A program made the translations under genes and the position numbers. 64,000 nt of DNA from an uncultured Pelagibacteraceae bacterium (GTDB lineage Bacteria > Pseudomonadota > Alphaproteobacteria > Pelagibacterales > Pelagibacteraceae), in NCBI GenBank assembly GCA_902594235.1, contig CACJLJ010000002.1, forward strand, positions 124,001-188,000. The letters are read 5' to 3'. This document shows, piece by piece, positions 2,187 to 58,372 of the stretch. Positions within the stretch are counted from its first letter, which is position 1; every line of letters begins with the position of its first letter. The notes under the pieces were generated by a model that saw nothing but the letters and a program-made list of their open reading frames with translations, made no database searches and was not told the DNA's origin.

Positions 2187-2473
2187 TATTCTATTACCTT
2201 TGGTACAACAAAATAATCTTCATTATCTTGAGGAGAATTTTTAATAATTTGTTCTCTGATATTTTTACTTTTAACCTCGTCAGGTCTTAGTTTTAATGTT
2301 GTTTCAGCAACAGAAGTTAATGGTCCAACATTGTCTGTTTTTAATTCGTTAAGTTTTTCAATGAAGTCAAAAATAGAATTTAGGTCCCCAGCTAATTTTT
2401 CGGCTTTTTTCTCATCAACTGAAATCCTTGATAATTTAGAAATATGTTTTATTGTTTTAAGATCTATACTCAT
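2186..2473 (-). CDS. gatC: Asp/Glu-tRNA amidotransferase subunit C
   Basis: 95 aa GatC-like (IKHISKLSRISVDEKKAEKLAGDLNSIFDFIEKL), overlaps gatA start. Confidence 0.95.
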   Translation of the reverse strand: MSIDLKTIKHISKLSRISVDEKKAEKLAGDLNSIFDFIEKLNELKTDNVGPLTSVAETTLKLRPDEVKSKNIREQIIKNSPQDNEDYFVVPKVIE

Positions 2474-2523
2474 ATGCTATTTAAATAAGACGCAAACTAT
2501 CATTTAAGTTTAGAATATACAAT

Positions 2524-2979: not shown

Positions 2980-3021
2980 TACTTGCTATTATAGTCGTTT
3001 ATAGCTATAGAGTTGGTTTTA

Positions 3022-3963: not shown

Positions 3964-5250
3964 ATGAAAAAACAATATTTTATAAATGCAAATATAATCG
4001 ACCCTCATAATTCAATAAATGAAACTGGAGGTTTGATTATAAGTGAAGAAGGTACAATTGAGGCGATAGGAAAAAAAGTTAATACCAATAATTTACCAAG
4101 CAGAGAAAAGCTAATAGATTTAAAAGGAAAATATATTTTTCCAGGATTAGTAGATATGCGAGTTTTTGTTGGTGAGCCAGGATATGAATATAAAGAAAAT
4201 TTTAGAACCTTAAGTAATGCAGCATTATCTGGTGGGGTTACCTCAGTAGTTACAATGCCTAATACAGATCCGATTATAGATAATGTATCTATAGTCGATT
4301 TTTTAAAAAGAAGAGGAAGAGATAAATCAAAAATAAATATATTTCCATGCGCTTCTCTTACGAAAAATATTGAAGGTACAAACATGACAGAATTTGGTCT
4401 TTTGCAAAGTAAAGGGATAATTGCTTTCACTGATGGAATAAAAACAATTCAAAATCCCAGATTAATGTCAAGAATTATGAACTCAGCTAAAGATTTAAAT
4501 TGTCTAATTATGCAACATGCGGAGGACTACGAACTTGCAAAGAATGGTATGATAAATTCAGGAATAATTGCTTCCAAATTAGGATTATCAGGTATACCAG
4601 AAATAGCAGAAAGAATTTTAATTGAAAGAGATTTAACATTATTAGAAAAAGTTAAATGTAGATATCATATATCTCAATTGTCATCACAAAAATCAGTTGA
4701 AGTTATAAAATATAGAAAAGAAATTATTAAATTTACCTCAGGAGTTTCAATTAATAACCTTTCATTAAATGAAAATGACATTGGAGATTTTAGAACTTTT
4801 TTAAAATTATCCCCTCCATTAAGAAGAGAGGAAGATAGATTGGCATTGGTTCAAGGATTGAAAGATGGTTTAATTGATGTAATTGTTTCAGATCATAAAC
4901 CTGAAGATGAAGAATCAAAAAGATTAACTTTTGCACAAGCAGCCACAGGTGCTTCAGGAATAGAGACACTACTATCTTTGAGCTTAGAATTATATCATAA
5001 TGGATCTCTTAAACTTGATACAATTATAAGGGCTCTCACATCAAATCCAGCAAAAATTCTTAGAATAAACAAAGGAAATTTATCAATTGGAAACGATGCT
5101 GACTTATGTATTGTTGATATCGATAAACCCTGGATTGTAAAAAAAGAAAAACTGGTATCAAAATCAAAAAATACTTCAATAGAAGATAAAAAACTCCAAG
5201 GAAAAGTTACAAATACATTTGTAAAAGGTAAAGAATTATTTAAGCTATAG
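3964..5250 (+). CDS. pyrC: Dihydroorotase
   Basis: Amidohydrolase fold, VSDHKPEDEESKRLTFAQAATGASGIETLL; directly follows pyrB. Confidence 0.94.
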   Translation: MKKQYFINANIIDPHNSINETGGLIISEEGTIEAIGKKVNTNNLPSREKLIDLKGKYIFPGLVDMRVFVGEPGYEYKENFRTLSNAALSGGVTSVVTMPNTDPIIDNVSIVDFLKRRGRDKSKINIFPCASLTKNIEGTNMTEFGLLQSKGIIAFTDGIKTIQNPRLMSRIMNSAKDLNCLIMQHAEDYELAKNGMINSGIIASKLGLSGIPEIAERILIERDLTLLEKVKCRYHISQLSSQKSVEVIKYRKEIIKFTSGVSINNLSLNENDIGDFRTFLKLSPPLRREEDRLALVQGLKDGLIDVIVSDHKPEDEESKRLTFAQAATGASGIETLLSLSLELYHNGSLKLDTIIRALTSNPAKILRINKGNLSIGNDADLCIVDIDKPWIVKKEKLVSKSKNTSIEDKKLQGKVTNTFVKGKELFKL

Positions 5251-5251
5251 T

Positions 5252-5830
5252 ATGGATTTTTTAATCATTGGTATAATTTCCTATTTAATGGGATCAATTC
5301 CATTTGGGTTTATATTAACAAAAATTTTTTTAAAAAAAGATATCAGAGATGTTGGTTCAGGAAACATTGGAGCAACAAATACACTAAGAGCTGGAAATAA
5401 ACTAATTGGTTATTCAACACTATCACTTGATATTATTAAGGCAATTATTCCAGTAATTTACACAAAAATTTATTTTCCAGATTTTATATATTTAGCTTCA
5501 TTGTGTGCTTTTTTAGGTCATGTGTTTCCAGTTTGGCTTAAGTTTAAGGGTGGTAAAGGTGTTGCAACTTATGTTGGAATTTTATTTTCAATTAACATTT
5601 ATTTTGGAATTATTTTTATAATAGTTTGGTTAATAACATTTGGGATTTCAAAGTTTTCATCTTTATCATCATTAATAGCTTCTGTATCAATACCCATATA
5701 TCTATTAATTTTAACTCAATTTGATCAATTAATTTTTTTTACAATAATGTTCGTATTAATATTTTTTACCCATAGAGAAAATATTAAAAGATTGAAAAAT
5801 AAAGAAGAAACCAAGACAAAAATTTATTAA
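5252..5830 (+). CDS. plsY: Glycerol-3-phosphate acyltransferase PlsY
   Basis: GSIPFGFILTK, DVGSGNIGATNTLRAG, GHVFPVWLKFKGGKGVAT motifs. Confidence 0.96.
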   Translation: MDFLIIGIISYLMGSIPFGFILTKIFLKKDIRDVGSGNIGATNTLRAGNKLIGYSTLSLDIIKAIIPVIYTKIYFPDFIYLASLCAFLGHVFPVWLKFKGGKGVATYVGILFSINIYFGIIFIIVWLITFGISKFSSLSSLIASVSIPIYLLILTQFDQLIFFTIMFVLIFFTHRENIKRLKNKEETKTKIY

Positions 5831-5866
5831 TTTGACTATCTAAAGCTTTTGAGTAGTTTGTAGTCT

Positions 5867-8443
5867 ATGAATTTGGTCATTGTAGAAAGTCCAGCTAAAG
5901 CAAAAACTATAAATAAATATTTGGGTGATAAATATAAAGTTTTAGCAAGTTACGGACATATAAGAGATCTTCCATCAAAAAATGGATCGGTAGATCCAGA
6001 CCAAGATTTTAAAATGGAATGGGAGGTTGATAGTTTTTCTAAAAAATATTTAAAAGAAATTACTGACGCAGCAAAAGAGTCCTCAAAAATAATTTTGGCT
6101 ACTGACCCAGATCGTGAAGGTGAAGCTATTGCTTGGCATGTTAAAGAGTATTTAAATGAAAAAAAACTTTTAAAAGATAAAGAAATTGAAAGAGTTGTCT
6201 TTAATGAAATTACCAAAAAGGCTGTAATACATGGAATTGAAAATCCAAGACAAATAGAACCACTGCTAGTAGATGCCTATATGGCAAGAAGAGCTTTAGA
6301 TTATTTAGTTGGGTTTAATATTTCTCCAATACTTTGGACAAAGTTACCAGGCTCAAAGTCTGCAGGAAGAGTTCAATCTGTAGCACTGAAGTTAATTACA
6401 GAGAGAGAGCATGAAATTGAGTCTTTTAAACCAGAAGAATTTTGGACGTTAAGTGTAAAATTTATTGATGAAAAAAAACAAAACATAACTGCTAGTATCA
6501 CTCAATTAGATAATAATAAAATTGAAAAGTTTTCTTTTAAAAATAGAGAGGCAATAAATATAGCTATATCAAATATAAAAAATAAAAAATTTCAAATTTC
6601 TGATATTTCAAGTAAAGTTGTCAATCGTAATCCTTCAGGTCCATTCACTACATCAACTCTTCAGCAAACTGCATCAAGTAGATTAGGATTTGGGGCTTCT
6701 CGAACAATGCAAATTGCCCAAAAACTTTATCAGGGAATTGATATAGAGGGTGAAACAATAGGATTAATAACCTATATGAGAACAGATGGCACCAACTTAT
6801 CAGCTGATGCTGTTACATCTTTTAGAAATTATATTCAAAATGATTTAGGTAAAGAATATTTACCTCAAAATCCATTGAATTATTCTGGAAAAAAAGCAAA
6901 GAATGCTCAAGAGGCTCATGAAGCCATTCGACCAACTGATATTACAAGAACTCCAGAATTAATAAAAAAATATTTAAGTCCAGACCAAAATAAATTATAC
7001 GATTTGATTTGGAGTAGAGCTTTATCTTCACAGATGGAGTCTGCTAAATTTGACCGAAATACAATTACTATAACTTCTGAGAATAATGACACTATTTGTA
7101 AAGCTAGTGGATCTGTTTTAAAATTTGATGGCTTTTTAAAAATTTATAAGAATATTAATAAAGACGATGATGAAAGCATTCTTCCCGAAATGTCTAGAGG
7201 ACCAATTAATATTGAAGCTTTATTAGATGAACAGCACTATACCCAACCTCCACCTAGGTACTCCGAGGCAAGTCTAGTAAAAAAACTTGAAGAATTAGGT
7301 ATTGGAAGACCCTCTACCTATGCAAGTATTATTTCCACTATAGCTAATAGAGGATACGCAGAAATTTTAAATAAAAGGTTCTTTCCTACAGATAGAGGAA
7401 AATTAATTTCAGCTTTTTTAGAAAAATTATTTTCAAAATATGTAGATTATAACTTTACGGCTGGATTAGAAGATCAATTAGATGAGATTACATCTGGGAA
7501 AGAAAGTTGGATAAAAGTGTTAGAACTTTTTTGGAAAGATTTCAATCACAATGTCTCTGAGGTTAAAGAAAAAAGAACAAGAGAAGTTCTAGATTTACTT
7601 AATGAAAGTTTGGGTAGTTTAGTTTTTGATAAAGATAAAGAAGGAAATATAGTAAGAAAATGTCAATTGTGCGATACTGGAACACTTAGCTTGAAAAACA
7701 GTTTCAGAGGTGGTGCTTTTATAGGTTGCTCAAATTACCCTGAATGTAAGTTTACTAGACCATTATCAAAAGCAAAAGCTGCAGCTCAAGCACAACTAGC
7801 TGAACCAAAATTAATTGGAAAACATGAAAATGGAAATGATATATATTTGAAAAATGGAAGATTTGGTCCATATCTTCAATATGAAATAAATCCAGATGAT
7901 CTGAAAATTGAAAAAACTCCAAAAAAAAAGAAAAAAACTAAAAAATCTAAATCAGATGTTAATGAACTTTTGAAAAATGTTTCAATACCAAAAGGCTTAG
8001 AATTAGAGAATATCGATTTAGAAAAAGCTCAATTCCTATGCTCATTGCCTAAATCTTTAGGGATAAATCCCGACAATCAAAAAGAGATAACATTAAATAC
8101 AGGTAGATTTGGTCCTTACCTTAAATGTGAAAATAAATCTGCGCGTTTAGAAAACATAGAAGAGATATTTTCAATAGGTTTAAATAGAGCAATAACAATG
8201 ATTGCTGAAGCTAAACCAGGAAGAATATCTTCTTCAATAATAAAAGATTTAGGAGAACATCCAGAAGATAAAAAACCTGTTAGAATTATGAAAGGTCAAT
8301 ACGGACCATACATAAAATATAAATCTTTGAATGCTACTATCCCAGAAGAAAAAGATCCTGTAGAACTAACAATGGAAGAAGCTTTAATTTTAATTGAGAA
8401 AAGAAGAGAATACGATAGAAATAAAAGAAAAAGTAAAAAATGA
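5867..8443 (+). CDS. topA: DNA topoisomerase I
   Basis: VESPAKAKTINKYLG, LATDPDREGEAIAWH, LITYMRTDGTNLS; C-terminal zinc-finger CQLCDTGTL...CSNYPEC. Confidence 0.97.
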   Translation: MNLVIVESPAKAKTINKYLGDKYKVLASYGHIRDLPSKNGSVDPDQDFKMEWEVDSFSKKYLKEITDAAKESSKIILATDPDREGEAIAWHVKEYLNEKKLLKDKEIERVVFNEITKKAVIHGIENPRQIEPLLVDAYMARRALDYLVGFNISPILWTKLPGSKSAGRVQSVALKLITEREHEIESFKPEEFWTLSVKFIDEKKQNITASITQLDNNKIEKFSFKNREAINIAISNIKNKKFQISDISSKVVNRNPSGPFTTSTLQQTASSRLGFGASRTMQIAQKLYQGIDIEGETIGLITYMRTDGTNLSADAVTSFRNYIQNDLGKEYLPQNPLNYSGKKAKNAQEAHEAIRPTDITRTPELIKKYLSPDQNKLYDLIWSRALSSQMESAKFDRNTITITSENNDTICKASGSVLKFDGFLKIYKNINKDDDESILPEMSRGPINIEALLDEQHYTQPPPRYSEASLVKKLEELGIGRPSTYASIISTIANRGYAEILNKRFFPTDRGKLISAFLEKLFSKYVDYNFTAGLEDQLDEITSGKESWIKVLELFWKDFNHNVSEVKEKRTREVLDLLNESLGSLVFDKDKEGNIVRKCQLCDTGTLSLKNSFRGGAFIGCSNYPECKFTRPLSKAKAAAQAQLAEPKLIGKHENGNDIYLKNGRFGPYLQYEINPDDLKIEKTPKKKKKTKKSKSDVNELLKNVSIPKGLELENIDLEKAQFLCSLPKSLGINPDNQKEITLNTGRFGPYLKCENKSARLENIEEIFSIGLNRAITMIAEAKPGRISSSIIKDLGEHPEDKKPVRIMKGQYGPYIKYKSLNATIPEEKDPVELTMEEALILIEKRREYDRNKRKSKK

Positions 8444-44604: not shown

Positions 44605-44637
44605 TTAATATAAGAATTATTAATAATTATTGCGCAT

Positions 44638-44713
44638 GCCCTTGTAGCTCAGCTGGTAGAGCAATTGATTTGTAATCAATAGGTCCGCGGTTCGAATCCG
44701 TGCGGGGGCACCA
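44638..44713 (+). tRNA. tRNA-Thr (anticodon TGT), CCA encoded
   Basis: GCCCTTGTAGCTCAGCTGGTAGAGCAATTGATTTGTAATCAATAGGTCCGCGGTTCGAATCCGTGCGGGGGCACCA. Confidence 0.97.
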
Positions 44714-44736
44714 TCTCTCAATAAATTCAATACAAA

Positions 44737-45621
44737 TTATTTTTGATTTTCAATTTCTTTACACGAATAACCTAAATCTTTTAATTTAAGTTTTTTGCAT
44801 GACTTAGCATAACGTAATTCATCAAAATAAACTATTTGAGTAGGATCAGCTCCCGGAAATCTTGATCCAAAGGATCTATATATACCTAACTGATATTCTA
44901 TTTCGTCTCCTTTCAAATGTGTTTTTCCTTTATGCTCATAAGTTAACTTTCCATTTATCCAAATTTTAAAAAACCCATCTTCTTTATGAGTCCATTTTGT
45001 ATTGACTAAAATATCATTCCATTTACCCAACATATCTTCTTGCTCTAAAAGTTTTTTTGATACATGATCACTTATACTTTCAGCAGGAGTAACCCAATAA
45101 CCCCCAGACTTTGATTTTGAATATTTATCAAATTGATTTTGAAACATAAATTCAGGAGGATTATCTCCTGAATTATGAAATTGTCCTAAAGCAACTTTTG
45201 TAGGAAAAATTACTTGAAAATCATTGGGAAAATATATCGACCACATACTCCAGTGAGTTTTTTTTTCAAAACAACATATTATAAGCTCTACTCTCTCACG
45301 ATCATTTTTTTTATCCCATCCCCATGTATCTCCATCTCTAACTTCAAATTTTAACGATTGGTTTCCAAATCTTACTGGATATCCATCACTTTTATCTACA
45401 ATTTTAAGAATATGTTTCCTCGATGTTTTATCTGACTTTAATATTTGTTTTGGGTTTATTCTCCAATTATTTCTTTTATCGTATTCTTTAACTTTATTAT
45501 AACCTTGAGCTATATCTTTATTTTTCTTTATATCTTTAAGAATCTTCTCAACATCTGCAAAACCAAAACTACTCCACAATAAACCCAGAACCACGATCCC
45601 TAAAAGTTTTTTCATCATCAA
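44737..45621 (-). CDS. Secreted polysaccharide lyase-like (heparin lyase I / alginate-lyase-type beta-jelly-roll) protein
   Basis: Signal peptide (LLGIVVLGLLWSSFGFA); RFEVRDGD-type region NQSLKFEVRDGDTWGWDKKNDRERVEL, YFPNDFQVIFPTKVALGQFHNSGDNPPEFMFQ, WNDILVNTKWTHKEDGFFKIWINGKLTYEHKG. Confidence 0.65.
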   Translation of the reverse strand: MMMKKLLGIVVLGLLWSSFGFADVEKILKDIKKNKDIAQGYNKVKEYDKRNNWRINPKQILKSDKTSRKHILKIVDKSDGYPVRFGNQSLKFEVRDGDTWGWDKKNDRERVELIICCFEKKTHWSMWSIYFPNDFQVIFPTKVALGQFHNSGDNPPEFMFQNQFDKYSKSKSGGYWVTPAESISDHVSKKLLEQEDMLGKWNDILVNTKWTHKEDGFFKIWINGKLTYEHKGKTHLKGDEIEYQLGIYRSFGSRFPGADPTQIVYFDELRYAKSCKKLKLKDLGYSCKEIENQK

Positions 45622-45639
45622 AACTTTATCACTAAAAAA

Positions 45640-46740
45640 TTATCTTGCGATTACCATCTTTACACTATCCCTATATTTTTTAACCCAAGCTGAAAATTCT
45701 TTTTTTGAATTAGATTTATTTTCAGAAGTTATATTTTCTAGCACAGGAAAAATATAGTCAGATTTAACTGCAAAGTTTACATTTTGTGGAAGCACTCCTT
45801 TTTTGTATAATGTTACAATTGAATCAAGTGTTGCAGTGACAATGCCAATAACTTCACCTTTAGAATTAATTAAGGGTCCACCAGAATTACCTGGTTGAAT
45901 TGGAACATCTATTTGCATAAGTCTAACATCATCCTCAAGTCCAGACATTGCATTTATTCTGCCAAACGTAGCTTTTAATTCCTTACCCTGAACATCAACG
46001 AGAGGATATCCTAAGGTGAACACTTCTTCACCTACATCTGAATTTTTTGCTTTAATAATTGGTAATGCAGAAATATTTTTTACATCATCGATTTTTATAA
46101 TAGCAATATCGTTAACTTTGTCTTGAGCAATTACTTTAGCGATCAATTCTTTATCATCCACTGATACTGTTATTTTTTTTGCATTTCTAATTACGTGATA
46201 ATTAGTTATCATATGACCTTCGGTAGAAATGAAGAAACCTGTGCCAGTGCTAAATCCTTTTTCTTTTCTAACTTTTTCAGGTTCATATATTGGTAGATCT
46301 GGTTTATTTTTTACTTCAGCCATCAATCTATCAATTTCAATTTTTGCTTCTTCTTCTTTAAAACCAAACGTGAATGCAAACATCCTCCCTTCTTTATCAA
46401 AACCAGTACCATAACCTTTGGTGCAAGATTTTGCGGTAAATGTTGCATCAACTCGACCTGTTAGAGAACACATTAAAGTTGCAACTCCCTTTTGACCTCC
46501 GCAGTATCCTGGAATCAAATAATTCGAAGCTGGAATAAAAGTAATTCTAGAGTTTCCATTGCATTTCATTTTTGATGGAACAGTTTCAACTTCAATTACA
46601 GAAGTTCCTGACATTAAATCGCTATTCACAGTGCCTATAAAAACTTCATTAAACTCTTCGTACTTGCCAACAACTTTATATTTAACTGTGCAATTTGATA
46701 ATATTAATCCAAAAAATATTATTAGAAGAATTTGTTTCAT
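45640..46740 (-). CDS. Trypsin-like (S1C/DegP-like) serine protease lipoprotein, no PDZ domain apparent
   Basis: Lipobox-like LILSNC; catalytic motifs TNYHVI, NDIAIIKI, QPGNSGGPLINSKGEVIGIV; extra ~130 aa N-terminal region. Confidence 0.85.
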   Translation of the reverse strand: MKQILLIIFFGLILSNCTVKYKVVGKYEEFNEVFIGTVNSDLMSGTSVIEVETVPSKMKCNGNSRITFIPASNYLIPGYCGGQKGVATLMCSLTGRVDATFTAKSCTKGYGTGFDKEGRMFAFTFGFKEEEAKIEIDRLMAEVKNKPDLPIYEPEKVRKEKGFSTGTGFFISTEGHMITNYHVIRNAKKITVSVDDKELIAKVIAQDKVNDIAIIKIDDVKNISALPIIKAKNSDVGEEVFTLGYPLVDVQGKELKATFGRINAMSGLEDDVRLMQIDVPIQPGNSGGPLINSKGEVIGIVTATLDSIVTLYKKGVLPQNVNFAVKSDYIFPVLENITSENKSNSKKEFSAWVKKYRDSVKMVIAR

Positions 46741-46832
46741 TAAAAAATCCTATCATTTTTGCAGGATTGTTGCCAAGATAAAATATTTTTGAATTATTGT
46801 TGCTAACAAATATTTATTCGAAGTTTTATAGA

Positions 46833-46856
46833 TGATTTGTAATCAATAGGTCCGCG
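46833..46856 (+). repeat. 24-nt direct repeat of tRNA-Thr (copy of 44666-44689); candidate att-like remnant
   Basis: TGATTTGTAATCAATAGGTCCGCG is identical at both sites, same orientation; flanks diverge. Confidence 0.85.
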
Positions 46857-46882
46857 ATAAAAACTATGTTTCCCTAAAAAAT

Positions 46883-47167
46883 TTAAAATAAACCACACGA
46901 TTGTAATTTATTTTTTGCAACTAATTTATCATTCTCGTATCCGGATCTAATTGCACATCTACATTTTTTACTAAAAAACATCTCATTACCGACAATAGAA
47001 TCTATTTCAAGTCCTGGATCTTCTTTTGCACAAAAATCTTGAATAGCTTTTTTTGAGATATCTGTCTTAGCTTTATATTTGAAAATATTCAACTTTTCGT
47101 TATTCATTCCAAAACTGATTTTTTGAGTAAAAAAAATGACTATCAAAAAGATTAATAATTTTTTCAT
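46883..47167 (-). CDS. Small secreted hypothetical protein with Cys residues
   Basis: 94 aa, signal peptide MKKLLIFLIVIFFTQKISFG; ...FCAKEDPG...KKCRCAIRSGYENDKLVAKNKLQSCGLF. Confidence 0.7.
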   Translation of the reverse strand: MKKLLIFLIVIFFTQKISFGMNNEKLNIFKYKAKTDISKKAIQDFCAKEDPGLEIDSIVGNEMFFSKKCRCAIRSGYENDKLVAKNKLQSCGLF

Positions 47168-47186
47168 AAATAATCATATCATAAGA

Positions 47187-48632
47187 TTAAAATTGAAAAT
47201 AGATAAATTGATTAATTGGTCTTAAAAATACAAAAACAAAATAAAATAAAAGTGAAACCATAAATGTATCTAGTGTCATTATAATAATATTCTTAGAAAT
47301 TTTATAACTTATAATTTTTTGTTTTATGAAATATGTAATTAATATACTCAAAGTAAGAACTAAAGTAATGATATAAACATTCTCCTGAAGTCCTAAATTT
47401 CTATAATTATATGGATTGATAACTTTTAACCACATCTTTAAAGCTATTTTTAATGAATCTGCTCTAAAAGGTATCCAAGATAACATTATAATAGGCAAAG
47501 TTAAAAACCATCCAATAAAAATTATATTTCTTTTTTTGAAGTTTTTAACAAAAGGTTTAAGAATTCTGTAAATATAAATTACGACCGCATGATATAATCC
47601 CCATATTAAAAATGTCCAATTTGCACCGTGCCACAATCCCATCAATCCCCAAGTAATAAATAAAGATTTTTGATCATTTTTATTTTCTATTGCATTGCCT
47701 AAACCCCCTTTTGAGGAATTTGATAATTTCAAATTTAATAAAGGGAGATAAATATAATCTCTAACCCAGCTTGATAAAGATATGTGCCATTTTTTCCAAA
47801 AATCTTTTGGAGAACTTGCTAAATAAGGGAAGTTAAAATTTTCAGGAAAAATTATTCCTATCATTTTAGCACTTCCTAAAGCTATATGTGAATATCCACA
47901 AAAATCAAAATAAATTTGAAAACCAAATAAAAAAGATAAAGTCCAAACATCGAAAGCTGAAAGTTCACTCACAGGTAAACTAAAACCACTATTTACTAAT
48001 GGGGCTAAATTATCTGCTATAACTACTTTTAGAAATAAACCATATAAAACTCTTCTTAATCCGCCAGAAATATAATCCCACCTAAAAACATTTTGTTTTT
48101 TAAATTGTGTAATAACTTCTTTAGCTCTCAAAATGGGTCCAGCAATTAGCTGCGGGAAAAAAGTAACATAACAAGCATAAACAATGAAATTGTTTTCAGG
48201 TTTTATAGTTCCTCTGTAAACATCAACGGTATAACTAATGGTTTGAAATGTATAAAAACTTATACCTAATGGAAGAATTATTTTTAATATTATTGGATCA
48301 ATTTTAGCATTAAAAAGATTTAACAAACCTATTGAATTTTCAGTAAAAAAAATAAGATATTTAAAAATAAATAAAATACCTAAATTAATAATTAAGCTTA
48401 TAAGTAAAAATATTTTCTTTTTTTTATTTTTTGAATTAACTATTTTAAGAGCAACCCACCAATCTAAAATAGTTGAAAAAAGTAATAAAGGTATAAATTC
48501 AATTTTCCAGAAACCATAAAAAATTAAACTAGATAAAAAAATTAAATAAAATCTTAAATTATATGAAATACACCAAAATAAAGTAACCACCGATGTAAGT
48601 AATATGAGGTAAGTTAAAGAATTAAAAACCAT
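47187..48632 (-). CDS. MBOAT-family O-acyltransferase (AlgI-like)
   Basis: Multi-TM; ILPLGISFYTFQTISYTVDVYRG, FPQLIAGPILRA, FDFCGYSHIALG, FPYLASSPKDFWKKWHISLSSWVRDYIYLPL, GLMGLWHGANWTFLIWGLYH. Confidence 0.95.
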   Translation of the reverse strand: MVFNSLTYLILLTSVVTLFWCISYNLRFYLIFLSSLIFYGFWKIEFIPLLLFSTILDWWVALKIVNSKNKKKKIFLLISLIINLGILFIFKYLIFFTENSIGLLNLFNAKIDPIILKIILPLGISFYTFQTISYTVDVYRGTIKPENNFIVYACYVTFFPQLIAGPILRAKEVITQFKKQNVFRWDYISGGLRRVLYGLFLKVVIADNLAPLVNSGFSLPVSELSAFDVWTLSFLFGFQIYFDFCGYSHIALGSAKMIGIIFPENFNFPYLASSPKDFWKKWHISLSSWVRDYIYLPLLNLKLSNSSKGGLGNAIENKNDQKSLFITWGLMGLWHGANWTFLIWGLYHAVVIYIYRILKPFVKNFKKRNIIFIGWFLTLPIIMLSWIPFRADSLKIALKMWLKVINPYNYRNLGLQENVYIITLVLTLSILITYFIKQKIISYKISKNIIIMTLDTFMVSLLFYFVFVFLRPINQFIYFQF

Positions 48633-48633
48633 G

Positions 48634-49767
48634 CTAATTAGTGATCCAAATCTTATTCATTTCTATAAAAATTTTTTCCGCTAATAATCTATGACCATCA
48701 GACTTGAAATGCATAAAATCTATTTCATTTTTGTTTTTAACAGTTGTTGAACCCTTTTTTCCCCACATATTATTAGGGATAAGATTTTCTAAATTCTTAA
48801 AGCTAATGTTCTTACTTGATGCAATTTGATCCACTTCATTTTTAAATTTCATATACTCATCTATGTCATAAGGTATTTTAATGTCATTTCTGATTGGAAC
48901 TATATAAATTAAAGTTTTTATATTATTTTTATTGGTTAATTCTAATAAGGCCTTAAGAGCATTCAAATTCTTAGAATATTGACCAGGTAACATTTTCCTT
49001 ATTGTTGTTGGATCAATTTGGAAAATATAGTTTCTTAATCTATAAAGAGAATTATATATATCTCCTCTTAAGTCAGAACGTTTATTCCATAAAGACCACA
49101 TTTCTTCTAACCTATTATTTAAAATGCTTTCAGACTTATCTTGAATTGATAGATTTGATTTCTGCACATTATTTCCTGAGTTATCATTCTTTATGTTATT
49201 AGAAATAATATTTTTTCCTATCTTGCTTGACTTTATCAATTTTAATGCATCTTGATCTTCTAGTATCCCCTTAAGATTTTCCCTTATTCCATCTTCTCGT
49301 AAATCATCAAAAACTATTGGAAGAATAAGATATTCTATTGGTAATTTCTCAACAAGATGTGCGGTCAAAATTAAATGTTCCTGTAAATTTGCATTTGGCT
49401 GTGAGAGTGAAAGAACATATTGTTTTTGTTTCTTTGCCTTTTTAAAAAAAATCATTGGAGACGTTTTTTGTCCGTCTCTATAATCATTAATAGCGTGTAA
49501 TTGAGAGTTTCCTAACCACAAAGTAATCTTTTCATTATCTCCATAATTTGAATAATCGATTAAACAATCCTCATAATCTGTTAAATTATGACAATGAATT
49601 TTAATGCCATCAACTTTTCCAATAACATTTTTTGTATCTTCTCCAAGTGCTAAATCTTCAAATTTTTGATTTGAATTATTAAGTGGAGCAGTAAAATATA
49701 AAATAATTATAGCTATGAAAATACCAACAACTAGAGATAAAGAGCTATTACTTAATTCTTTTTTCAT
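48634..49767 (-). CDS. SGNH-like membrane-anchored protein, probable partner of MBOAT acyltransferase
   Basis: N-terminal TM, LWLGNSQLHAIND and C-terminal DFMHFKSDGHRLLAEKIF resembling SGNH blocks; adjacent to MBOAT. Confidence 0.6.
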   Translation of the reverse strand: MKKELSNSSLSLVVGIFIAIIILYFTAPLNNSNQKFEDLALGEDTKNVIGKVDGIKIHCHNLTDYEDCLIDYSNYGDNEKITLWLGNSQLHAINDYRDGQKTSPMIFFKKAKKQKQYVLSLSQPNANLQEHLILTAHLVEKLPIEYLILPIVFDDLREDGIRENLKGILEDQDALKLIKSSKIGKNIISNNIKNDNSGNNVQKSNLSIQDKSESILNNRLEEMWSLWNKRSDLRGDIYNSLYRLRNYIFQIDPTTIRKMLPGQYSKNLNALKALLELTNKNNIKTLIYIVPIRNDIKIPYDIDEYMKFKNEVDQIASSKNISFKNLENLIPNNMWGKKGSTTVKNKNEIDFMHFKSDGHRLLAEKIFIEMNKIWITN

Positions 49768-49776
49768 ATTTGATTT

Positions 49777-51462
49777 TTAATCTACATTGGAAACAAAAAT
49801 TTTGTAGCCAAATTTTTTTTTTAATAATAAATCTTTCTTGAAATGATTGCATGGAGATTTTGAGTAACCACACATTTCTCCATTTTTGGTCACATAATGA
49901 ATAAATTCGTTATTTTTATCAAATACTTTAATATTGTCTTTATTTTGGTCTATCGAAGAATGAATTTCAGGTATTATTGATGAATTATAATTTTCCGTAA
50001 TTCTTACAGTATTTTTTATCAAAATTAAAAAAACTGTTAAAATTAAAAAACTATTTAAAGTTTTAAAAATAAAATTATTCTTAGTTAATTTTATATTTTT
50101 TATGAAAATAAAATAAAACAAAAAAATCATCACTAAATTAATCTGCGATATTCCCAACCGATAAACTGGAAATTTGATAAACCATAAAACAAGAAAAAAT
50201 ATGCTAAATAAAAAAAAGTTTATCAAGTTTTTATCTGGATTATTTTTTTTTAAATTTTTTGTAAAATAAAATAATAAAAAATTTAAAATTAGAAACATTA
50301 ATACAGGAAAAATTTTTTTTAAAATAAATAAGAAATGATTTTGCGACCATGTTTCTAACCAAATAAAATTCTTAACAAAATCAGATTTTTCTATATTTTT
50401 ATCATTGCCTAAATCAGGCCAACCTTTTGACCATGCTTCATTTACCAATATATTTTCATCCAGTGAGTTTGTTTTCCAACTAATATCATTAAAACAAGAG
50501 ATCTTTAGAGGATAAATTATGCATCCACTTGTCAAAAAATTCTTTAATAACCATGCCGTTAAAAACATACAGTAAAAGACAAATGCAGTTGATTTAATTA
50601 ATCTTTTTTTTCTTTTGATAAAAAAGAATAGAAATAAAGAAATTAATGAAACAAAAATGAATGTTGGTTTTATTAAAAAGAGAAATAAACTAATTATTGA
50701 AAGCTCTTTAAAAAAATTATGATCATTTTTATTTTGTAGAAATTTAAATAGACTTACTAAGAAAATAAAATAATAAAGATGAACTTGAGCATCATTACCA
50801 TACTCACTATATCTATTGAATGCATAAAGTGAAATAATTAAAATTAAATAAATTATATATGAGTAAATTAATTTATTTTTAATATTAAAATTATTTTTAA
50901 ACTCGTAATACATTAAAAAAAATGAAAAAATTGCAACAAGAGAAATGGGAATTAATAATCCATTTTCATTGAATATAAAATTATTAGAAAAACTTGATAT
51001 ATATTGAAAAATTGAAATGTGAGAAAATCTAGAATGAATATTTGAAACACCAATTATGATTTCATGCTCATTTAAAATTTTTGAATATGGAAGATGATAA
51101 AGCCAAGCATCAGGTCTGTTGACCGTAGAAAATATAATTAAAATCAAAGCTAAAAAGGATATCAATATAGATTTTTTAAGATAAATTTTTTTATCCTGAT
51201 TAAAAAAACCTGAGTTAATACTTAATAATAAAATTAATATAAAAAATACTGAGTTTACAACATCATCCAAAGCTACAAAAAAATTTAAAAATAAGGAAAC
51301 AAAACCAATTAAGATAAACCCAAATAATCCATCATATTCTATATGTGGTTTATAATTTTTATTGATTAATAGTTTTCTAAAATAAAAACCACCTGAAGTT
51401 ATAAAAATAGTAAAAATTAGTAACTGAATAAAAAGAATTATCAAATTTTCAAAATTAGACAT
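49777..51462 (-). CDS. Large polytopic membrane protein (candidate GT-C-like glycosyltransferase/polymerase)
   Basis: Many TM segments; NRPDAWLYHLPYSKIL resembles DADSLDYHLGSVLEI in the 53068 ORF. Confidence 0.6.
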   Translation of the reverse strand: MSNFENLIILFIQLLIFTIFITSGGFYFRKLLINKNYKPHIEYDGLFGFILIGFVSLFLNFFVALDDVVNSVFFILILLLSINSGFFNQDKKIYLKKSILISFLALILIIFSTVNRPDAWLYHLPYSKILNEHEIIIGVSNIHSRFSHISIFQYISSFSNNFIFNENGLLIPISLVAIFSFFLMYYEFKNNFNIKNKLIYSYIIYLILIISLYAFNRYSEYGNDAQVHLYYFIFLVSLFKFLQNKNDHNFFKELSIISLFLFLIKPTFIFVSLISLFLFFFIKRKKRLIKSTAFVFYCMFLTAWLLKNFLTSGCIIYPLKISCFNDISWKTNSLDENILVNEAWSKGWPDLGNDKNIEKSDFVKNFIWLETWSQNHFLFILKKIFPVLMFLILNFLLFYFTKNLKKNNPDKNLINFFLFSIFFLVLWFIKFPVYRLGISQINLVMIFLFYFIFIKNIKLTKNNFIFKTLNSFLILTVFLILIKNTVRITENYNSSIIPEIHSSIDQNKDNIKVFDKNNEFIHYVTKNGEMCGYSKSPCNHFKKDLLLKKKFGYKIFVSNVD

Positions 51463-51498
51463 ATCAATTATATTTGTTCAAAAATATTACTAAATTTT

Positions 51499-52188
51499 TT
51501 ATTTAAAAAAATTATAATAAAAAATACATCGCAAAGCACTGAAACCATCTTTCCATGTAATTTTTTTTCCATCTAAGTAAGTTCTACCAAAATACTTAAC
51601 ACCAACCTCAAAAATTCTGATATTCATCTTGGCTATTTTTGCAGTTACTTCAGGTTCAAAGCCAAATCTATCCTCTTTCAAATCAATCTTTTTTATTATT
51701 TCAGATTTAAATACTTTGTAACAGACTTCCATATCTGTAAGATTTAAATTTGTAAACATATTCGACAAAAGTGTTAGGATCTTATTTCCTATCATGTGCC
51801 AAAAATATAAAACTCTTTTTTCCTCAGAACCAATAAATCTTGAGCCATAAACGACGTCTGCAAAGCCATTTTTAATTGGTTTAATTAGTTTATCATAATC
51901 ACTTGGATCATATTCTAAATCAGCGTCTTGTATAAGAATAATCTCACCTGTCGCTTTTTTTATTCCCTCTCTAATCGAAAAACCTTTTCCATAATTTTTT
52001 TCATTAAAAATAATTTTATGTACTTTATCTTTTAGATTTTCATTTAATAATTTTCTGGTTTGATCTGTAGAAAAATCATCAATAACTATAATTTCAAAAT
52101 TTTCGATTTTTTGTCCAATTATTTTATCTATAATTTTTTCTATAGTTTTCTCCTCATTATAACATGGTATGATGATACTTATTTTCAT
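51499..52188 (-). CDS. GT2 family glycosyltransferase (dolichyl-phosphate mannosyltransferase-like)
   Basis: ISIIIPCYNEEKTIEKIIDKI, IVIDDFSTDQT, GKGFSIREGIKKATGEIILIQDADLEYDP. Confidence 0.92.
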   Translation of the reverse strand: MKISIIIPCYNEEKTIEKIIDKIIGQKIENFEIIVIDDFSTDQTRKLLNENLKDKVHKIIFNEKNYGKGFSIREGIKKATGEIILIQDADLEYDPSDYDKLIKPIKNGFADVVYGSRFIGSEEKRVLYFWHMIGNKILTLLSNMFTNLNLTDMEVCYKVFKSEIIKKIDLKEDRFGFEPEVTAKIAKMNIRIFEVGVKYFGRTYLDGKKITWKDGFSALRCIFYYNFFK

Positions 52189-52196
52189 TTTTATAA

Positions 52197-53066
52197 TTAA
52201 TTTTTTTTATTAATTCTTATAATTTCTCCTATCAATCCAAAAAATATAAAATTAATTCCAGATATAAATAATATTAAAAATGATAGGTCTAAAATATTTT
52301 CTAAAAATAAAAAACTAAAAATTAAAGTGGCGAATGATAATAGAATAAAAAATACACCTATATATCCGAAAAATTTCATTGGGGAAAAAATTAAAAATAT
52401 CTTAAAAATTAGATAAAAAAATTTAAACGGATCAACTATTACGCTTATCTTAGATTTTCCTTCTCTTTTTAAATAATCTGTATCAATATATTCAATTATC
52501 TTATTTCTTGAAATCGTACACAATGTTTGAGTAGAGGATAAGGAAAATTGATCAGGAAAAATTTCAATATCTTTTTCGAAGTCTTTTTTATAAAAAACTC
52601 TTAATCCTGAATTTATATCTTTAATCTTATAATCAAATATTAAAGAAGATAAGCTATTTATCATCTTTCTAAATATAACTTTTAAAAAAAAGTCTTTATA
52701 TTTAAAGTTTCTTTTTCCAACAATTAAATCAAATTTATTATTTTCAAATTCCTTCATTAAATCAATCAATTGATCAATATTATAAGAGTTATCAGCATCA
52801 ATGATTGCAACTATTTCAGAAGAAGTTTTCATTACACCCTTTTTTATTGAAGCCCCATATCCAAGATTTTTTTGATTATCAATCAGATGAAACTTGTTGT
52901 TGTCCCAATTTGTAATGTCTTTGAAATCATAGCTATTTCCATCATTTACAATTATTATTTCAAAATTATCGTTATCACTTATCAATTTTTTTGCTTTTTC
53001 AAAAAAATTTAAGAAAACTTCTTTTTTTTCATAAACTGGTACTACGATACAATATTTATTTGTCAT
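52197..53066 (-). CDS. GT2 family glycosyltransferase with C-terminal TM helices
   Basis: CIVVPVYEKKEVFLNFFEKA, IIIVNDGNS, NLGYGASIKKGVMKTSSEIVAIIDADNSY; two C-terminal TMs. Confidence 0.9.
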   Translation of the reverse strand: MTNKYCIVVPVYEKKEVFLNFFEKAKKLISDNDNFEIIIVNDGNSYDFKDITNWDNNKFHLIDNQKNLGYGASIKKGVMKTSSEIVAIIDADNSYNIDQLIDLMKEFENNKFDLIVGKRNFKYKDFFLKVIFRKMINSLSSLIFDYKIKDINSGLRVFYKKDFEKDIEIFPDQFSLSSTQTLCTISRNKIIEYIDTDYLKREGKSKISVIVDPFKFFYLIFKIFLIFSPMKFFGYIGVFFILLSFATLIFSFLFLENILDLSFLILFISGINFIFFGLIGEIIRINKKN

Positions 53067-53067
53067 G

Positions 53068-54832
53068 TTATAAGCATCTAGTATCTAATAAATAGATATT
53101 AGCAATACTTCTCCTTGTATTTATTGGATTTCGGGTTGCATGATTTAGAGTATTCATGTCTATATCCTTACATTTATAAAAAGGTTTAAATTTTTTTTCG
53201 TAATTTTCTTTTGAAATAACTAATTTTGTAATCTTTTTATCATCTACAATTTTTATTAATTCTGAATATGATTTATTAGCAACACTATAGTAATAAAAAT
53301 TACTTTTTTGATGTGATTTCGATCTTATTGTGGTGTCAAACATTAATATATCATTATAACTTGTTTTGTTGTTTATCCATTCAATTATTTCGTAATTGTG
53401 AGCTTTTTGATGCATACTTTTTTGAAAAGCTTTTTGATTAAATGACGGAAATGATAAAGTTAGTATGGTGTATAGAATCATACCTAAAGTTAAGATTGAA
53501 TATGGGATTATTGGAATTATGATTAATTTTAAAAACCTTTTTTCTTTTATCAAATTAAAATTTTGCAACAAAAATAATATTACTAAAAAATAAAGATCTA
53601 AAAAGTATCTTGAAGGTGATTTTTCTGAGAAAAATAATAAAGTATAAACAATTAAAAGAAAAAAAATCAAAATTTTATCTGTCTTAAATAAAAATAAGAG
53701 ATAACAAAAAATTACGATTGGACTTGCCAGTAATGTAATGTTGCTTAGACTAATTGGAAAAGAATGAAGTATCGGTATAAATAAAAATTCAAAATAATTA
53801 AAAATTTTTTCACTATGTCTTAAATCTTCACCAAAGTTAATTAATTCATTATTTGGTATAGCTTTTAAAAATTCAAAATATGGAGTGATAGGATCTCCGT
53901 AATGGAGAAAATTTTTTAAATAAAAAAAACTTGGAAATATCAAAAAAATAATAACTGAAAAAAATATAAATTTGGCTAATTGTATTTCTTTTTTAAATTT
54001 AAAAATTAATACAAACCATAACGGAATACTGTAAATTAAATAAGTATATTTAAAACCAATTGGAATTATAGTTAAAAATAATAAAACAAGTAATGAATAT
54101 TTTAATGGTTTTTCTTTTAATAAAATAAATGAAAAAACTAACAAATAACAATTACTTAAAATCAATATTTGTTTAGCAGAAAGTAACAAGGTAATGATTA
54201 TTGGAAAGGATAAAACAATTAGATAATTAATTTTTTTATCTTTATTAAATAAATACAAAATTAAAAAAATATTCATTAAAGGTAAAACTTGAAAAATCTG
54301 ACCAAAATTTAATGAATAAAAAAATAGACCATAAAAATTTATCATTTCTCCTAATCCAATTAGCCTGAAATGAAACCATTCATCTTTTCTTATTTCCAAT
54401 TGATTTGATCTTATGATTTCTAAAACACTTCCTAAATGATAATCAAGGGAGTCTGCATCGGTAATTTGTGAAAATGTAAATAATATTAATATAAACAAAA
54501 ATATATAGTCTAACTTTTGAAAAAAAATAAATTTGTTTAATTTAAGTAAATTAAAATTTTTAAGAGAATAAATTATTTGTACTATGGTGATAAAGTAAAT
54601 TAGATATTTAATTAAAAATATTTCAATTTTGAATAAAATTAAAAAAAAGTAATATTGAAGAAATAAAAAAATATATAGATATATTAAAAAAAATAAAATT
54701 TAAAGTTGAGTTATTGAATAATTTAAATCTCAAACTTAAAATATAAGTAAATATAAAATTAAGAAATAATACCAACAAACCATTTAAAGAACTAATTACT
54801 GGATTGATTTCAATTAAGTTTGCAAAATTCAT
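53068..54832 (-). pseudogene. Polytopic membrane protein split by an apparent frameshift (N-terminal ORF 54623-54832; main ORF 53068-54498, open in frame up to 54699)
   Basis: ATG at 54832 lies next to the upstream stop at 54834; the frames overlap at 54623-54699 and join in-frame if one T is removed from the T8 tract (forward A8, 54641-54648). Confidence 0.6.
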
Positions 54833-54833
54833 T

Positions 54834-55613
54834 TTAAATTTTTCTTAAAATATAGGTATGTCTTAAAAATAATTTTTCTTTAATAAGTTTTGGAGTAACA
54901 TGATTAAGAAATTCATCTAATTTAATTGATAACTTTATGTTAAATGGTAAGAAAATTGTTGTATTATATTTCAAAACCTCAATGTTATTTGCTTCAATCA
55001 AATCATCAATCTGTTTTTTTTTTAGAAAAGTATGGGGTCCTTCACTGTGATTTATATTAAAAATTGCTGCTAAAAAATGAACAATTTCCCAAGAAATATT
55101 TGGACATGTGAGTATTATAATTCCATCTTTTTTTACAATTCTTATTAATTCATTAAAGAACTCTTTGTACTCTGAGATATGCTCAATAGTCTCATAACTA
55201 ATTACAAAATCAAATTGATCATTATCAAACGGTAGAGGAAAAGCGTCTATGAAATAATCTTTAAAAAGTATTTTTTTTTCTTTTAAATTATTTTTGCTTT
55301 TATCTAAAAAACTTTTACTAAAATCAGCTATTGAAAACTCTGCATTTGGAAATTTTTTAGACCAAAAAATTGATCCATTTCCAGTCCTCGTTTGTATATC
55401 CAAACAATTATTAGGATTAAAATTATCTAAATTTATTTCATCAATTAATTTTTTTGAATTTAAAAAACGCATTTGATAAGGATAGATTTTTGAATTTATA
55501 TCATCATACTCTTTTAAATTGTCCCAAAATTTACCCATTTCAGAGAGCGTCCAGTTTTTATTTCTTAGATAGGATATTTCGTCTTTTAATCTTTTAAAAA
55601 AACCACTTATCAT
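54834..55613 (-). CDS. SAM-dependent class I methyltransferase
   Basis: CLDIQTRTGNGSIFWSKKFPNAEFSIADFS...FPLPFDNDQFDFVISYETIEHISEYKEFFNELIRIVKKDGIIILTCPN. Confidence 0.88.
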   Translation of the reverse strand: MISGFFKRLKDEISYLRNKNWTLSEMGKFWDNLKEYDDINSKIYPYQMRFLNSKKLIDEINLDNFNPNNCLDIQTRTGNGSIFWSKKFPNAEFSIADFSKSFLDKSKNNLKEKKILFKDYFIDAFPLPFDNDQFDFVISYETIEHISEYKEFFNELIRIVKKDGIIILTCPNISWEIVHFLAAIFNINHSEGPHTFLKKKQIDDLIEANNIEVLKYNTTIFLPFNIKLSIKLDEFLNHVTPKLIKEKLFLRHTYILRKI

Positions 55614-55619
55614 TTTAAT

Positions 55620-57002
55620 CTAAATTTTTAAAAATTCCTCTAACCTTTTATTTTTAACTTTTATTATCTTAATTTTATTTAAACCTTTTCTTTTTGTAGG
55701 TTTTGTAACTGATTTCCATACTTGTCTTATTATCTTAAATATTAATCCCAATACATTTGAATTAACAAAAGAAAATATATTTTTAATAATTCTATTTGAG
55801 GCTATCGAAATAATTGCACCGATAACCAACTCTATGAATTTTCTTGTAAATGAAATATTTATAGGCTCTAAATCATACAAAGGAACAGGTCCCTTTTTTT
55901 TTAATTTTTCAATTCTTAAATACGAGCCTACTTTTTTAAATTCTATCATATGCGCATGCATTTTAATTGCATCTTTAAAATTAATCTTTTTAACATTTAA
56001 GGTATCATTAGTTTTTAATTTTAATAAAATTTGATCAAATATTCTTGATCTTGTTATTACTGCAGAATATCCATGTCCTTTTTTTTCTAATTTTGGTGAC
56101 CATGCGTCTCCAATAGAAATATCAGACAACTCTCCAGTAAAATCAGGAGTAATAAGACAATTTTTTGAGATAAAAAAAGGAATTAAATAATTATAGTAAA
56201 ATTTCTTTAAACTTAAAACTTTTTTGTTTCTAGTTATAATTCTTAACATTCCAGGCCATTCACCATATCTCCAATTTAATTGTTTGACATTTTTAATATC
56301 ATTTATCCCATTTCCTTTTAAATAAAATTCTATAGCTCCAGGATACATATTCGTCCCCGCATATAAACTTATTAAAAATTTTATATGACTAAACTTTTTT
56401 GGATATTTTGTTTTAAGGATTCTTAACGACGCAATGTGTTCTGGTAAACCAACAAAAACATATCTTTTATTTGGTTTTAATTCTTTTAATTTATGTAATA
56501 GTGGTGTTGTTTGATATATACTTTGAGATGTATTCAGTATTTTTTCAATAGACTTCGTTACTAAAATATCAAAATTCAATATTTTTTTTTCTTTTTCATC
56601 TAGAATACAAACGTAATCAGCTTTTTTTGATTTTATTAATTCAATTAATAATGATCTTATGATTCCACCTGAGCTAGCATTTTGTCTAACTAAATTTGAA
56701 TTAGAACTTGCTATATATAATGAGTTGTAACCACCAATAATTTTATTTTTTTTTGAAGTAATCAATTTTTTTGATAAATGATTGTAAGGAATTCCCCTAC
56801 CTGGACAGGCGTGAACTATTTTTTTTAAATCAGGAATATCTTTTTTATTTGGTTTACGAACCAGTTTTGGTATTGGACCTTTGCTTGTATTGATCATTCT
56901 AAAGAGATTATTAGATAATCCTTCACACAAACCACAATGAAAACAATTTCCTGGATTAATTACTTCTGTGTATATTTGTTTAATTAAATTTTTTTGTTCC
57001 AC
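55620..57002 (-). CDS. FrhB/coenzyme F420 hydrogenase beta-subunit family Fe-S protein in polysaccharide locus
   Basis: GNCFHCGLCEGL...CPG cluster motif; NASSGGIIRSLLIELIKSKKADYV; GELSDISIGDAWSPKLEKKGHGYSAVITRS; GTG start. Confidence 0.82.
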   Translation of the reverse strand: MEQKNLIKQIYTEVINPGNCFHCGLCEGLSNNLFRMINTSKGPIPKLVRKPNKKDIPDLKKIVHACPGRGIPYNHLSKKLITSKKNKIIGGYNSLYIASSNSNLVRQNASSGGIIRSLLIELIKSKKADYVCILDEKEKKILNFDILVTKSIEKILNTSQSIYQTTPLLHKLKELKPNKRYVFVGLPEHIASLRILKTKYPKKFSHIKFLISLYAGTNMYPGAIEFYLKGNGINDIKNVKQLNWRYGEWPGMLRIITRNKKVLSLKKFYYNYLIPFFISKNCLITPDFTGELSDISIGDAWSPKLEKKGHGYSAVITRSRIFDQILLKLKTNDTLNVKKINFKDAIKMHAHMIEFKKVGSYLRIEKLKKKGPVPLYDLEPINISFTRKFIELVIGAIISIASNRIIKNIFSFVNSNVLGLIFKIIRQVWKSVTKPTKRKGLNKIKIIKVKNKRLEEFLKI

Positions 57003-57066
57003 AAATTAGTTTTTAATTTTTTTTAAAGTATCTTCAAGAAAAAATAAATAATTAGAAAATCTAATA

Positions 57067-57930
57067 TCATTTTTGCTCATTTTGAAAATTTAAGATTGAA
57101 AATATAAAACTAACAACTACTGGCAATAAATACCTTAAATTAAAGAGAATAAGAATTAAAAAAATATTCGCCTCTATATTTAAATCTGTAAAAAGAAAAA
57201 ATATAATATAATCCCTTACTCCGAATCCCCCTATAGAAATTGGAATTAAACCAGCTAAAATAGAAATTCCAAAAATAAAAACTGTCTGATAAATACTTAA
57301 ATCAATATTAAGAACATTTATTATCAAAAAAATTTGAAAAAACTGTAAAGACCAAATCAATATATCAAATAATAAAAAATTAAATATTTTTGAGTTTAAA
57401 TAATTTTCTTTTTGAATAAATTTTCTAACCAGATAAAAATTAAATATCATAACTAAAATAAATACTAAACATGTACTCAATTTACTCAAATGAGTTATTT
57501 TACTAATGTCGGTATCCATTATCAAAAAACTTAAAAAAACTAATGTGAGCAAAACAAATAATGAAATTAATTTTTCTATAATATTAATTCTAAAAAACTT
57601 GTTAAAAGTTATATCCAAATCTAAATACTTGTGTCTAAAAAAGTCACCAGATTTTGCAGGCAAAAATAAATTGTAAGTGTAGGCAATTATTGTGGCTTGA
57701 AATGCCTGATTAAATTTTATCTTTTTTAAATTATTTACTAGGTATATTAATTTAAGTACAAGAAAATAAAAGATTGGTATAAAAATGAATAAAATTAAAA
57801 TCAATAGATTAATTTGGTCTTTTAATACTTTTAACTCAGAAAAATTTACATAAATTTCTTTACTAAGATTATTAATTAAAAAAATTGAGACTATTATTGA
57901 AATTACATATTTTATATTTTTAAATAACAT
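57067..57930 (-). CDS. Lysylphosphatidylglycerol synthase TM/UPF0104 family (flippase-like) membrane protein
   Basis: Polytopic; YNLFLPAKSGDFFRHKYL and GLIPISIGGFGVRDYIIFFLF motifs. Confidence 0.8.
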   Translation of the reverse strand: MLFKNIKYVISIIVSIFLINNLSKEIYVNFSELKVLKDQINLLILILFIFIPIFYFLVLKLIYLVNNLKKIKFNQAFQATIIAYTYNLFLPAKSGDFFRHKYLDLDITFNKFFRINIIEKLISLFVLLTLVFLSFLIMDTDISKITHLSKLSTCLVFILVMIFNFYLVRKFIQKENYLNSKIFNFLLFDILIWSLQFFQIFLIINVLNIDLSIYQTVFIFGISILAGLIPISIGGFGVRDYIIFFLFTDLNIEANIFLILILFNLRYLLPVVVSFIFSILNFQNEQK

Positions 57931-57967
57931 TTAAAGTACCAATCATACTAGTTATTTAACCTATTAA

Positions 57968-58372
57968 CTATTTATTTGTTAAAGCTTTTTTAAGAAAATT
58001 ATATTCTAATTTACAATCCTTATATCCTCTTTTCACAACATTAATATATCTTTCAGTGGGATATCTAAATTGAGTTTTGTTTACCATTGTATATGTCATT
58101 ACTTTTTTTCCGTAATAATAAAAATAATATTTTTCATATAAAACTGGATAATCTTCATAAATATCTAATTTTCTTTCATCGCTTTTAGATATTTCAAATA
58201 ATCCACCTGGGACTATTGAATTTTTTTTTGGTTCGATATCTGCAGCTCTATATTTGCTCCTAAATGTTAATTTAAAATTTCTTAATTTTATTTTTTTAAT
58301 AAAAATACTGTCTTTACATCTTCTTTTCATTTGAAAATGATGAAGATTACTACCATAGGCAAAGTAAAGCAT
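57968..58372 (-). CDS. Gamma-glutamylcyclotransferase-like (AIG2 family) protein
   Basis: MLYFAYGSNLHHFQMKRRC ... VPGGLFEISKSDERKLDIYEDYP. Confidence 0.85.
   Translation of the reverse strand: MLYFAYGSNLHHFQMKRRCKDSIFIKKIKLRNFKLTFRSKYRAADIEPKKNSIVPGGLFEISKSDERKLDIYEDYPVLYEKYYFYYYGKKVMTYTMVNKTQFRYPTERYINVVKRGYKDCKLEYNFLKKALTNK

Follow-up and report, generated by a model that had tools for sequence, protein, structure and literature searches.

SAR11 bacteria, the ocean's most abundant heterotrophs, combine streamlined genomes and few recognised mobile elements with a large flexible gene pool. In the window analysed here, a stretch of 64,000 nucleotides from a Pelagibacteraceae genome, a tRNA-Thr gene (anticodon TGT/UGU; 44638-44713, + strand, detected with ARAGORN) is followed downstream by an exact copy of part of itself, which raises the question of whether the DNA enclosed by the two is a mobile element and what could have moved it.

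The repeated 24-mer, TGATTTGTAATCAATAGGTCCGCG, corresponds to nt 29-52 of tRNA-Thr (44666-44689) and recurs at 46833-46856, both on the + strand, as the initial annotation of this DNA had reported; a search allowing up to three mismatches found no third copy in the whole genome. The 24-mer includes the anticodon stem-loop, as might be noted in favour of a tRNA-like regulatory RNA mimic at 46833, but zero occurrences of the repeat are expected in shuffled sequence and in dozens of genomes the copy is found at the same place with the same motif beside it, so that such a mimic, or chance, is an exceedingly improbable origin.

The tRNA-Thr locus of the window

Between tRNA-Thr and the copy lie a secreted polysaccharide lyase gene (44737-45621, PF14099) and a trypsin-like lipoprotein protease gene (45640-46740, PF13365), both on the - strand, i.e. 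pointing toward tRNA-Thr. The ORFs and Pfam matches of this interval include no integrase, in agreement with its first description. The tRNA serves as attachment site and left boundary, and is followed by TCTCTCAATAAATTCAATACAAATTATTTTTG (44714-44745, + strand), the remnant of a conserved cassette left end. In other cassettes this motif runs on into repeats (e.g. AGTGTGTTAGG); in the window the left end is typical just after the CCA and then passes directly into the 3' end of the lyase gene, which occupies the position of the P' arm repeats, so these are missing. The P' arm is also lost in genome G073.

The right end is typical, with a right (P) arm (46756-46777, +) of two repeats, TTTTGCAGG and TTGTTGCCA, ~11 bp apart and belonging to the TGTTGC arm family, a core-proximal motif, ATTATTGTTGCTAACAAATATTTATTCGAAGTTTTATAGA (46793-46832, +), which is common to many cassettes (ATTATTGTTGCAAACAAATGTTTATTTAAACTTTAGCAAT), and a spacing of 93 bp between the protease start and the right core. 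This core (attR; 46833-46856, +) holds 24 nt of tRNA-Thr and is truncated, since the match stops after nt 52, as had been noted earlier; the sequence from 46857 reads ATAAAAACTATG, and the remaining tRNA 3' end, GTTCGAATCCGTGCGGGGGCACCA, is lost. Outside the cassette follows a variable island (46857-57975) with a 94-aa ORF, an MBOAT acyltransferase, a glycosyltransferase and other genes, which occupies the position of the NAD-kinase gene in other genomes; synteny with the backbone is regained at ~57976. The arrangement suggests, as the order of events, that the right tRNA tail was removed when this island came in.

In our view, the interval 44714-46856 is likely one of the non-autonomous integrative cassettes that form a family behind the Pelagibacter tRNA-Thr(UGU) gene, and a decayed one. 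Both att sites are damaged and the right arm is the only arm kept; because the left (P') arm and the displaced tRNA 3' end are lost, the cassette is probably frozen, fixed by the loss of one arm, in line with the decayed element that the initial annotation had offered as one option. Since the lyase and the protease are found in separate cassettes elsewhere (L073, L062), the window cassette may also be a fusion of the two.

Arrays, empty sites and cargo in related genomes

A search for the 24-mer, with up to three mismatches, in 151 genomes of the same genus gave at least one match in 114 and at least two in 53 of these, where one to five further copies follow tRNA-Thr downstream in direct orientation at distances of 0.6-7.7 kb, with a maximum of six cores in G106. 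Reading 60 multi-copy stretches, we found that a copy is normally the whole 47-nt tRNA 3' half up to the CCA, GATTTGTAATCAATAGGTCCGCGGTTCGAATCCGTGCGGGGGCACCA, which corresponds to 44667-44713 in the window, and that truncated right copies such as the window's are a minority. A special crossover at GGTCC marked by the truncated copies was considered and dropped, since the search pattern itself finds just copies keeping ~20 nt. At nine loci (L071, L107, L111, L112, L113, L115, L119, L121 and L122) the site is empty, with the NAD-kinase gene directly after tRNA-Thr, and at others different cargo is bounded by the same core. The initial annotation had proposed an att-flanked micro-island, to be judged by comparison with relatives, and had named the lyase and protease lying beside tRNA-Thr in all of them as the contrary outcome; because relatives have an empty site or other cargo bounded by the same core, the comparison supports the proposal.

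The arrays are present in named single-cell genomes, in the single-contig (closed) genome G185 (L329) and, less often, in genera of the family other than this one, and for this reason assembly error is not their cause. The features of a tRNA-targeted genomic island are found in part: a tRNA with a direct 3' repeat (24 of 47 nt in the window, full in most relatives) and an empty site in relatives are both present, and an integrase on the element is missing in the window and occurs in one of 81 cassettes overall.

These 81 non-redundant cassettes were taken from 141 loci and have a median length of 1637 bp (range 630-7742), about 86% of it coding. Among ORFs of at least 80 aa, 173 of 187 (93%) are directed toward the tRNA, and 74 cassettes are entirely one-way. 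The median distance from the right core to the start of the first ORF is 94 bp (IQR 93-104), and 114 bp separate the stop of the last ORF from the CCA. The single cassette with an integrase, L072 (7.7 kb), also encodes a primase-helicase-like protein; absence from the others was judged by searching with 13 SAR11 proteins already known, most of them recombinases, and by the 25 commonest families listed in a Pfam scan of representatives. Cargo proteins of at least 100 aa number 177 and fall into 108 clusters, the largest of which consists of 36 pilin-like N_methyl proteins; type IIG restriction-modification enzymes, Mrr and methyl-directed restriction enzymes, proteases and a globin are also found. 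The N_methyl paralogues form long runs (L059, L067, L076 and other arrays), both inside cassettes and behind the array.

A second class of elements at tRNA-Thr (L074, L075, L069, L084, L094, L333 and L341) is 3.5-7.6 kb long and has no recognised integrase; the left ends and arms (TGAAGTC, GTGAAT, TGTAGTC) are unlike those of the small cassettes, and some of these elements carry very long coiled-coil-like proteins. Separately, an M23-type peptidase gene terminates in a tRNA-Thr core in two genomes (L063, G071:C6:70720; L105, G113:C2:157499), where the core has changed the gene ending from MSVLN* (and similar) to ...SVLPDL*. In G071, whose own tRNA-Thr is a variant without cassettes (L328), cassettes follow the M23 core; in G113 there is just a scar-like core of 20-21 nt.

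The window and the tRNA-Thr locus of G073 share 99.1% identity across the 980 bp from the tRNA start to the lyase start (44636-45615), and their versions of the trmH-like gene immediately upstream of the tRNA share 77.4%. This comparison indicates that a near-identical cassette half was transferred recently between diverged genomes, presumably by some route between cells. Decay is greater in the most distal copies than in internal ones (p=0.009), which fits entry at the tRNA end. We also considered an origin and spread of the repeats in which tRNA fragments exchanged sequence by homologous recombination or gene conversion and site-specific recombination played no part. Repeats of 47 bp can recombine, partial homologies among cassettes suggest some reshuffling, and the scar behind the M23 gene of G113 fits a loss between two cores, but such a process gives no account of the first copy, of the paired arms described below or of the exact tRNA boundary of the 99% identical block, and we find it improbable.

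Paired arm repeats and integrases sharing them

Each cassette has GC-containing repeats at its ends, about three at the left and about two at the right, with a spacing of ~11 bp (in some cases 13); examples are AGTGTTGCCAG-ATTGTTGCAGG-ATTGTTGC for the left arm and CATTGTTGCGAG-ATTGTTGCC for the right. The repeat sequence varies among cassettes and agrees between both ends of the same one: the mean arm match was 21.6 within and 13.5 between cassettes in a set of 57, and in all 81 the mean local score was 22.2 within versus 13.5 between, with 11.9 for an interior control. In 20,000 permutations, which ignore shared ancestry, the maximum was 15.7 and none reached 22.2; shared arm families do not inflate the contrast, since they raise the between-cassette score and so work against it. 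Letter agreement in the left arms peaks at lag 11 (0.202, versus 0.06-0.15 at other lags). The sequence TGTTGCNNGATTGTTGC occurs 14 times in the 151 whole genomes, always on contigs with a tRNA-Thr array or att copy and nearly always at cassette ends. The left arms are followed by the motif ATCAANYNNTC, which would resemble an IHF site, at 56 of 236 left ends and in none of 97 controls. The attP of lambda Int has two P and three P' arm sites. Matching arm repeats on both sides of the core are found in the cassette family, of which the window keeps the right arm only, and judged by sequence the layout of the cassette ends is that of a lambda-type attP.

The same arms are found next to integrase genes. 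The 8.9-kb viral contig L024 is satellite-like, with genes for a small terminase subunit (TerS), a primase-like ATPase and an integrase, and with no structural protein among the proteins scanned. Its attP comprises the SAR11 tRNA-Thr 3' half with GCGGACA arms on both sides, and its integrase gene starts 102 bp from the core, about where cargo begins in the cassettes (~94 bp), on the same strand as cassette cargo. When 236 left and 104 right cassette ends were compared with the L024 arms, the top match at the left and that at the right belonged to a single cassette, L059-1. A search of 399 genomes for relatives of this integrase found two close ones, L347 and L346, and one shorter fragment. The L347 integrase, 73% identical to that of L024, adjoins a full tRNA-Thr core, behind which comes the NAD-kinase flank; its arms are TGTTGCAGTAGTGTTGCAG (TGTTGC), the best left-end matches to them are TGTTGC cassettes, and the window right end is the second-best right-end match to the L347 P arm. 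The L346 integrase (76% identical to that of L024) lies beside tRNA-Asn and has different arms. In L360/L362, the cargo of a tRNA-Thr cassette with TGTGGTC arms is separated from the P arm (TTGTGGTCATAGTGTAGACGG) by a 78-aa integrase N-terminal remnant, an arrangement that appears to represent an intermediate between an integrase element and a cassette. The four integrase N-termini have a variable first strand (IRTKNGNWHVEI, FYKRMGKWGVWI, FTRKRGKWLVSI, IRKKREKWCVEI) followed by a conserved stretch, a pattern that, in these four sequences, would be expected if arm recognition diversifies. The identity between integrase-linked and cassette arms makes the integrases candidates for recognising the cassette arms.

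Integrase-bearing elements at the tRNA-Thr site are rare, and integrase partners were found for three arm families only (GCGGACA, TGTTGC and TGTGGTC), with none for GTGTAC, GTGACG or GTGTCG. The 30-mers of cassette ends have no exact match in the viral contig collection, and public phage records gave no comparable attP, the matches being mostly tRNA-Thr genes and distant integrases. Two viral contigs returned by a search with three TGTTGC arms, L282 and L283, are unrelated phage contigs that carry primase, terminase and portal-like genes and have no integrase, tRNA or att core near the repeats. A 551-aa integrase ~11 kb downstream of tRNA-Thr in G120 was set aside, with no tRNA-Thr core nearby in the examined stretch.

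Proposed mechanism and relation to known systems

The reading that we consider best, with a probability of roughly 0.8, is that these are non-autonomous cassettes moved in trans. They probably borrow satellite-type integrases, because they have no recombinase of their own but the same recognition sites at their ends. An intact cassette, as a circle, would form a lambda-type attP with the tRNA-Thr 3' half as core and arm repeats on both sides. A tyrosine integrase from a satellite or phage with matching arm specificity would act on it in trans and recombine it with the anticodon-loop region of tRNA-Thr. The cassette would thereby supply the tRNA with a new 3' half and displace the previous one downstream as the right copy, and later cassettes entering at the tRNA again would build the array. 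Because the cargo holds the position and orientation of the integrase gene beside the P arm, the cassettes probably descend from integrase-bearing elements in which this gene was lost or replaced by cargo. Going beyond what was initially annotated, the window cassette would belong to a cassette system that extends across the genus, with paired attP arms and integrases that can be identified as partners.

The enzyme might instead be a resident chromosomal tyrosine recombinase working the array as IntI does an integron. One of ~317 aa is encoded in the window's genome (L081, G000:C2:79916-80455), and PF00589 matches, mostly of that length class, are present in 110 of the 151 same-genus genomes. 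Its Pfam architecture is a SAM-like N-terminal domain and a catalytic domain, with no arm-binding domain, one enzyme does not account for many arm families, and the arms match satellite-family integrases instead, so that we give this idea little credence. Less remote, though still unlikely, is that separate prophages or satellites each inserted at tRNA-Thr and lost most of their genes, the copies being what their independent decay has left, no longer mobile units and comparable to the debris of CIMEs. Such islands, att-flanked and without integrase, are established, as is their tandem accretion (ICESt1-type; PMC5704250), and the full integrase-bearing element L072 at the site, the integrase remnant in G584 and the damage to the window cassette itself would suit that history. 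Decay would not, however, keep matched arms, one orientation, ~86% coding content and a fixed 94-bp spacing in 81 cassettes, nor yield 99% identical cassette pieces in diverged genomes.

Within the preferred reading of cassettes moved in trans, we lean, by a small measure, towards an integron-like system derived from satellite attachment modules. Each member of one integrase family with diversified arm-binding N-termini would serve a matching class of integrase-less cassettes, all at one single tRNA; in these cassettes cargo under the P-arm promoter would have replaced the integrase gene, the arms acting as an 'address code' between cassettes and helpers.

The cassettes resemble CIMEs in being att-flanked, in having no integrase or transfer genes and in being stacked at one target with repeated target 3' ends. 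As in CIMEs, attL and attR are kept and integration and transfer genes are lost, with both sites damaged in the window. They differ in being mostly 1-2 kb long and of a single orientation, with matched attP arms and a kinship to satellite integrases rather than to conjugative elements; no conjugation genes were seen in them. With integrons and CALINs (PMC11389934) they share one-orientation cassettes of a few genes, polar growth from an anchor and an enzyme that would act in trans. Here, in contrast, the site is a tRNA-Thr fragment with lambda-type arms; no attC was found at the cassette ends and no IntI linked to the array, and the cargo probably carries its own promoter. Tycheposons, PICI and VEIME (named in PMC11389934) also have tRNA targets and marine hosts, and L024 resembles such a satellite in having genes of three types, for an integrase, for replication and for packaging. 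In contrast to these, genes of all three types are missing from the window cassette and were not seen in the small cassettes; a tyrosine recombinase of its own at the tRNA, typical of tycheposons, is found in L072.

Small cassettes behind tRNAs have been described in 'Ca. Actinomarinales' (PMC7771536) and, as the additive fGI-2 at tRNA-Lys, in 'Ca. Methylopumilus' (PMC10872708), likewise streamlined aquatic bacteria with direct repeats of part of a tRNA (20 bp in Methylopumilus). They concern other tRNAs and lineages, and the accessible parts of these reports describe no arm structure, orientation rule, integrase partner or origin. The ssrA islands of Dehalococcoides are also tandem, with repeats of the RNA gene 3' end, and 15 are without an integration module; they differ in the serine recombinase DsiB, carried by 16 islands, and in the T-loop site, and no paired tyrosine-integrase arms are described in the portion of that report available (PMC3146451). 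In the Pelagibacterales, tyrosine recombinases and tRNA genes have been found beside a transferred phn operon (PMC12416821). The literature outside subscription journals and preprints yielded no description of a tRNA-Thr array in SAR11, nor of paired arms, integrase-replacement geometry or helper matching for such cassettes.

If true, a trans-mobilised tRNA-Thr array would be a concrete route for the gain and loss of small genes in SAR11, among them restriction and other defence candidates, surface enzymes and pilin-like proteins, and integrase-less islands can then be more than debris. Given the arm pairing, the helper of a given cassette would be predictable from sequence and the entry of flexible genes into SAR11 directly testable.

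Other SAR11 integrases (L346, L348-L361 and L126-L128) adjoin the 3' ends of tRNA-Asn, tRNA-Met, tmRNA and other tRNA genes in a similar geometry, with the RNA gene end followed by paired repeats, an RBS and the integrase gene, and cassette arrays may exist at these sites too. The window's own genome also encodes a 425-aa integrase and a serine recombinase next to tRNA-Leu(CAA) (L082, G000:C3, ~148165-148761), probably marking another integrated element.
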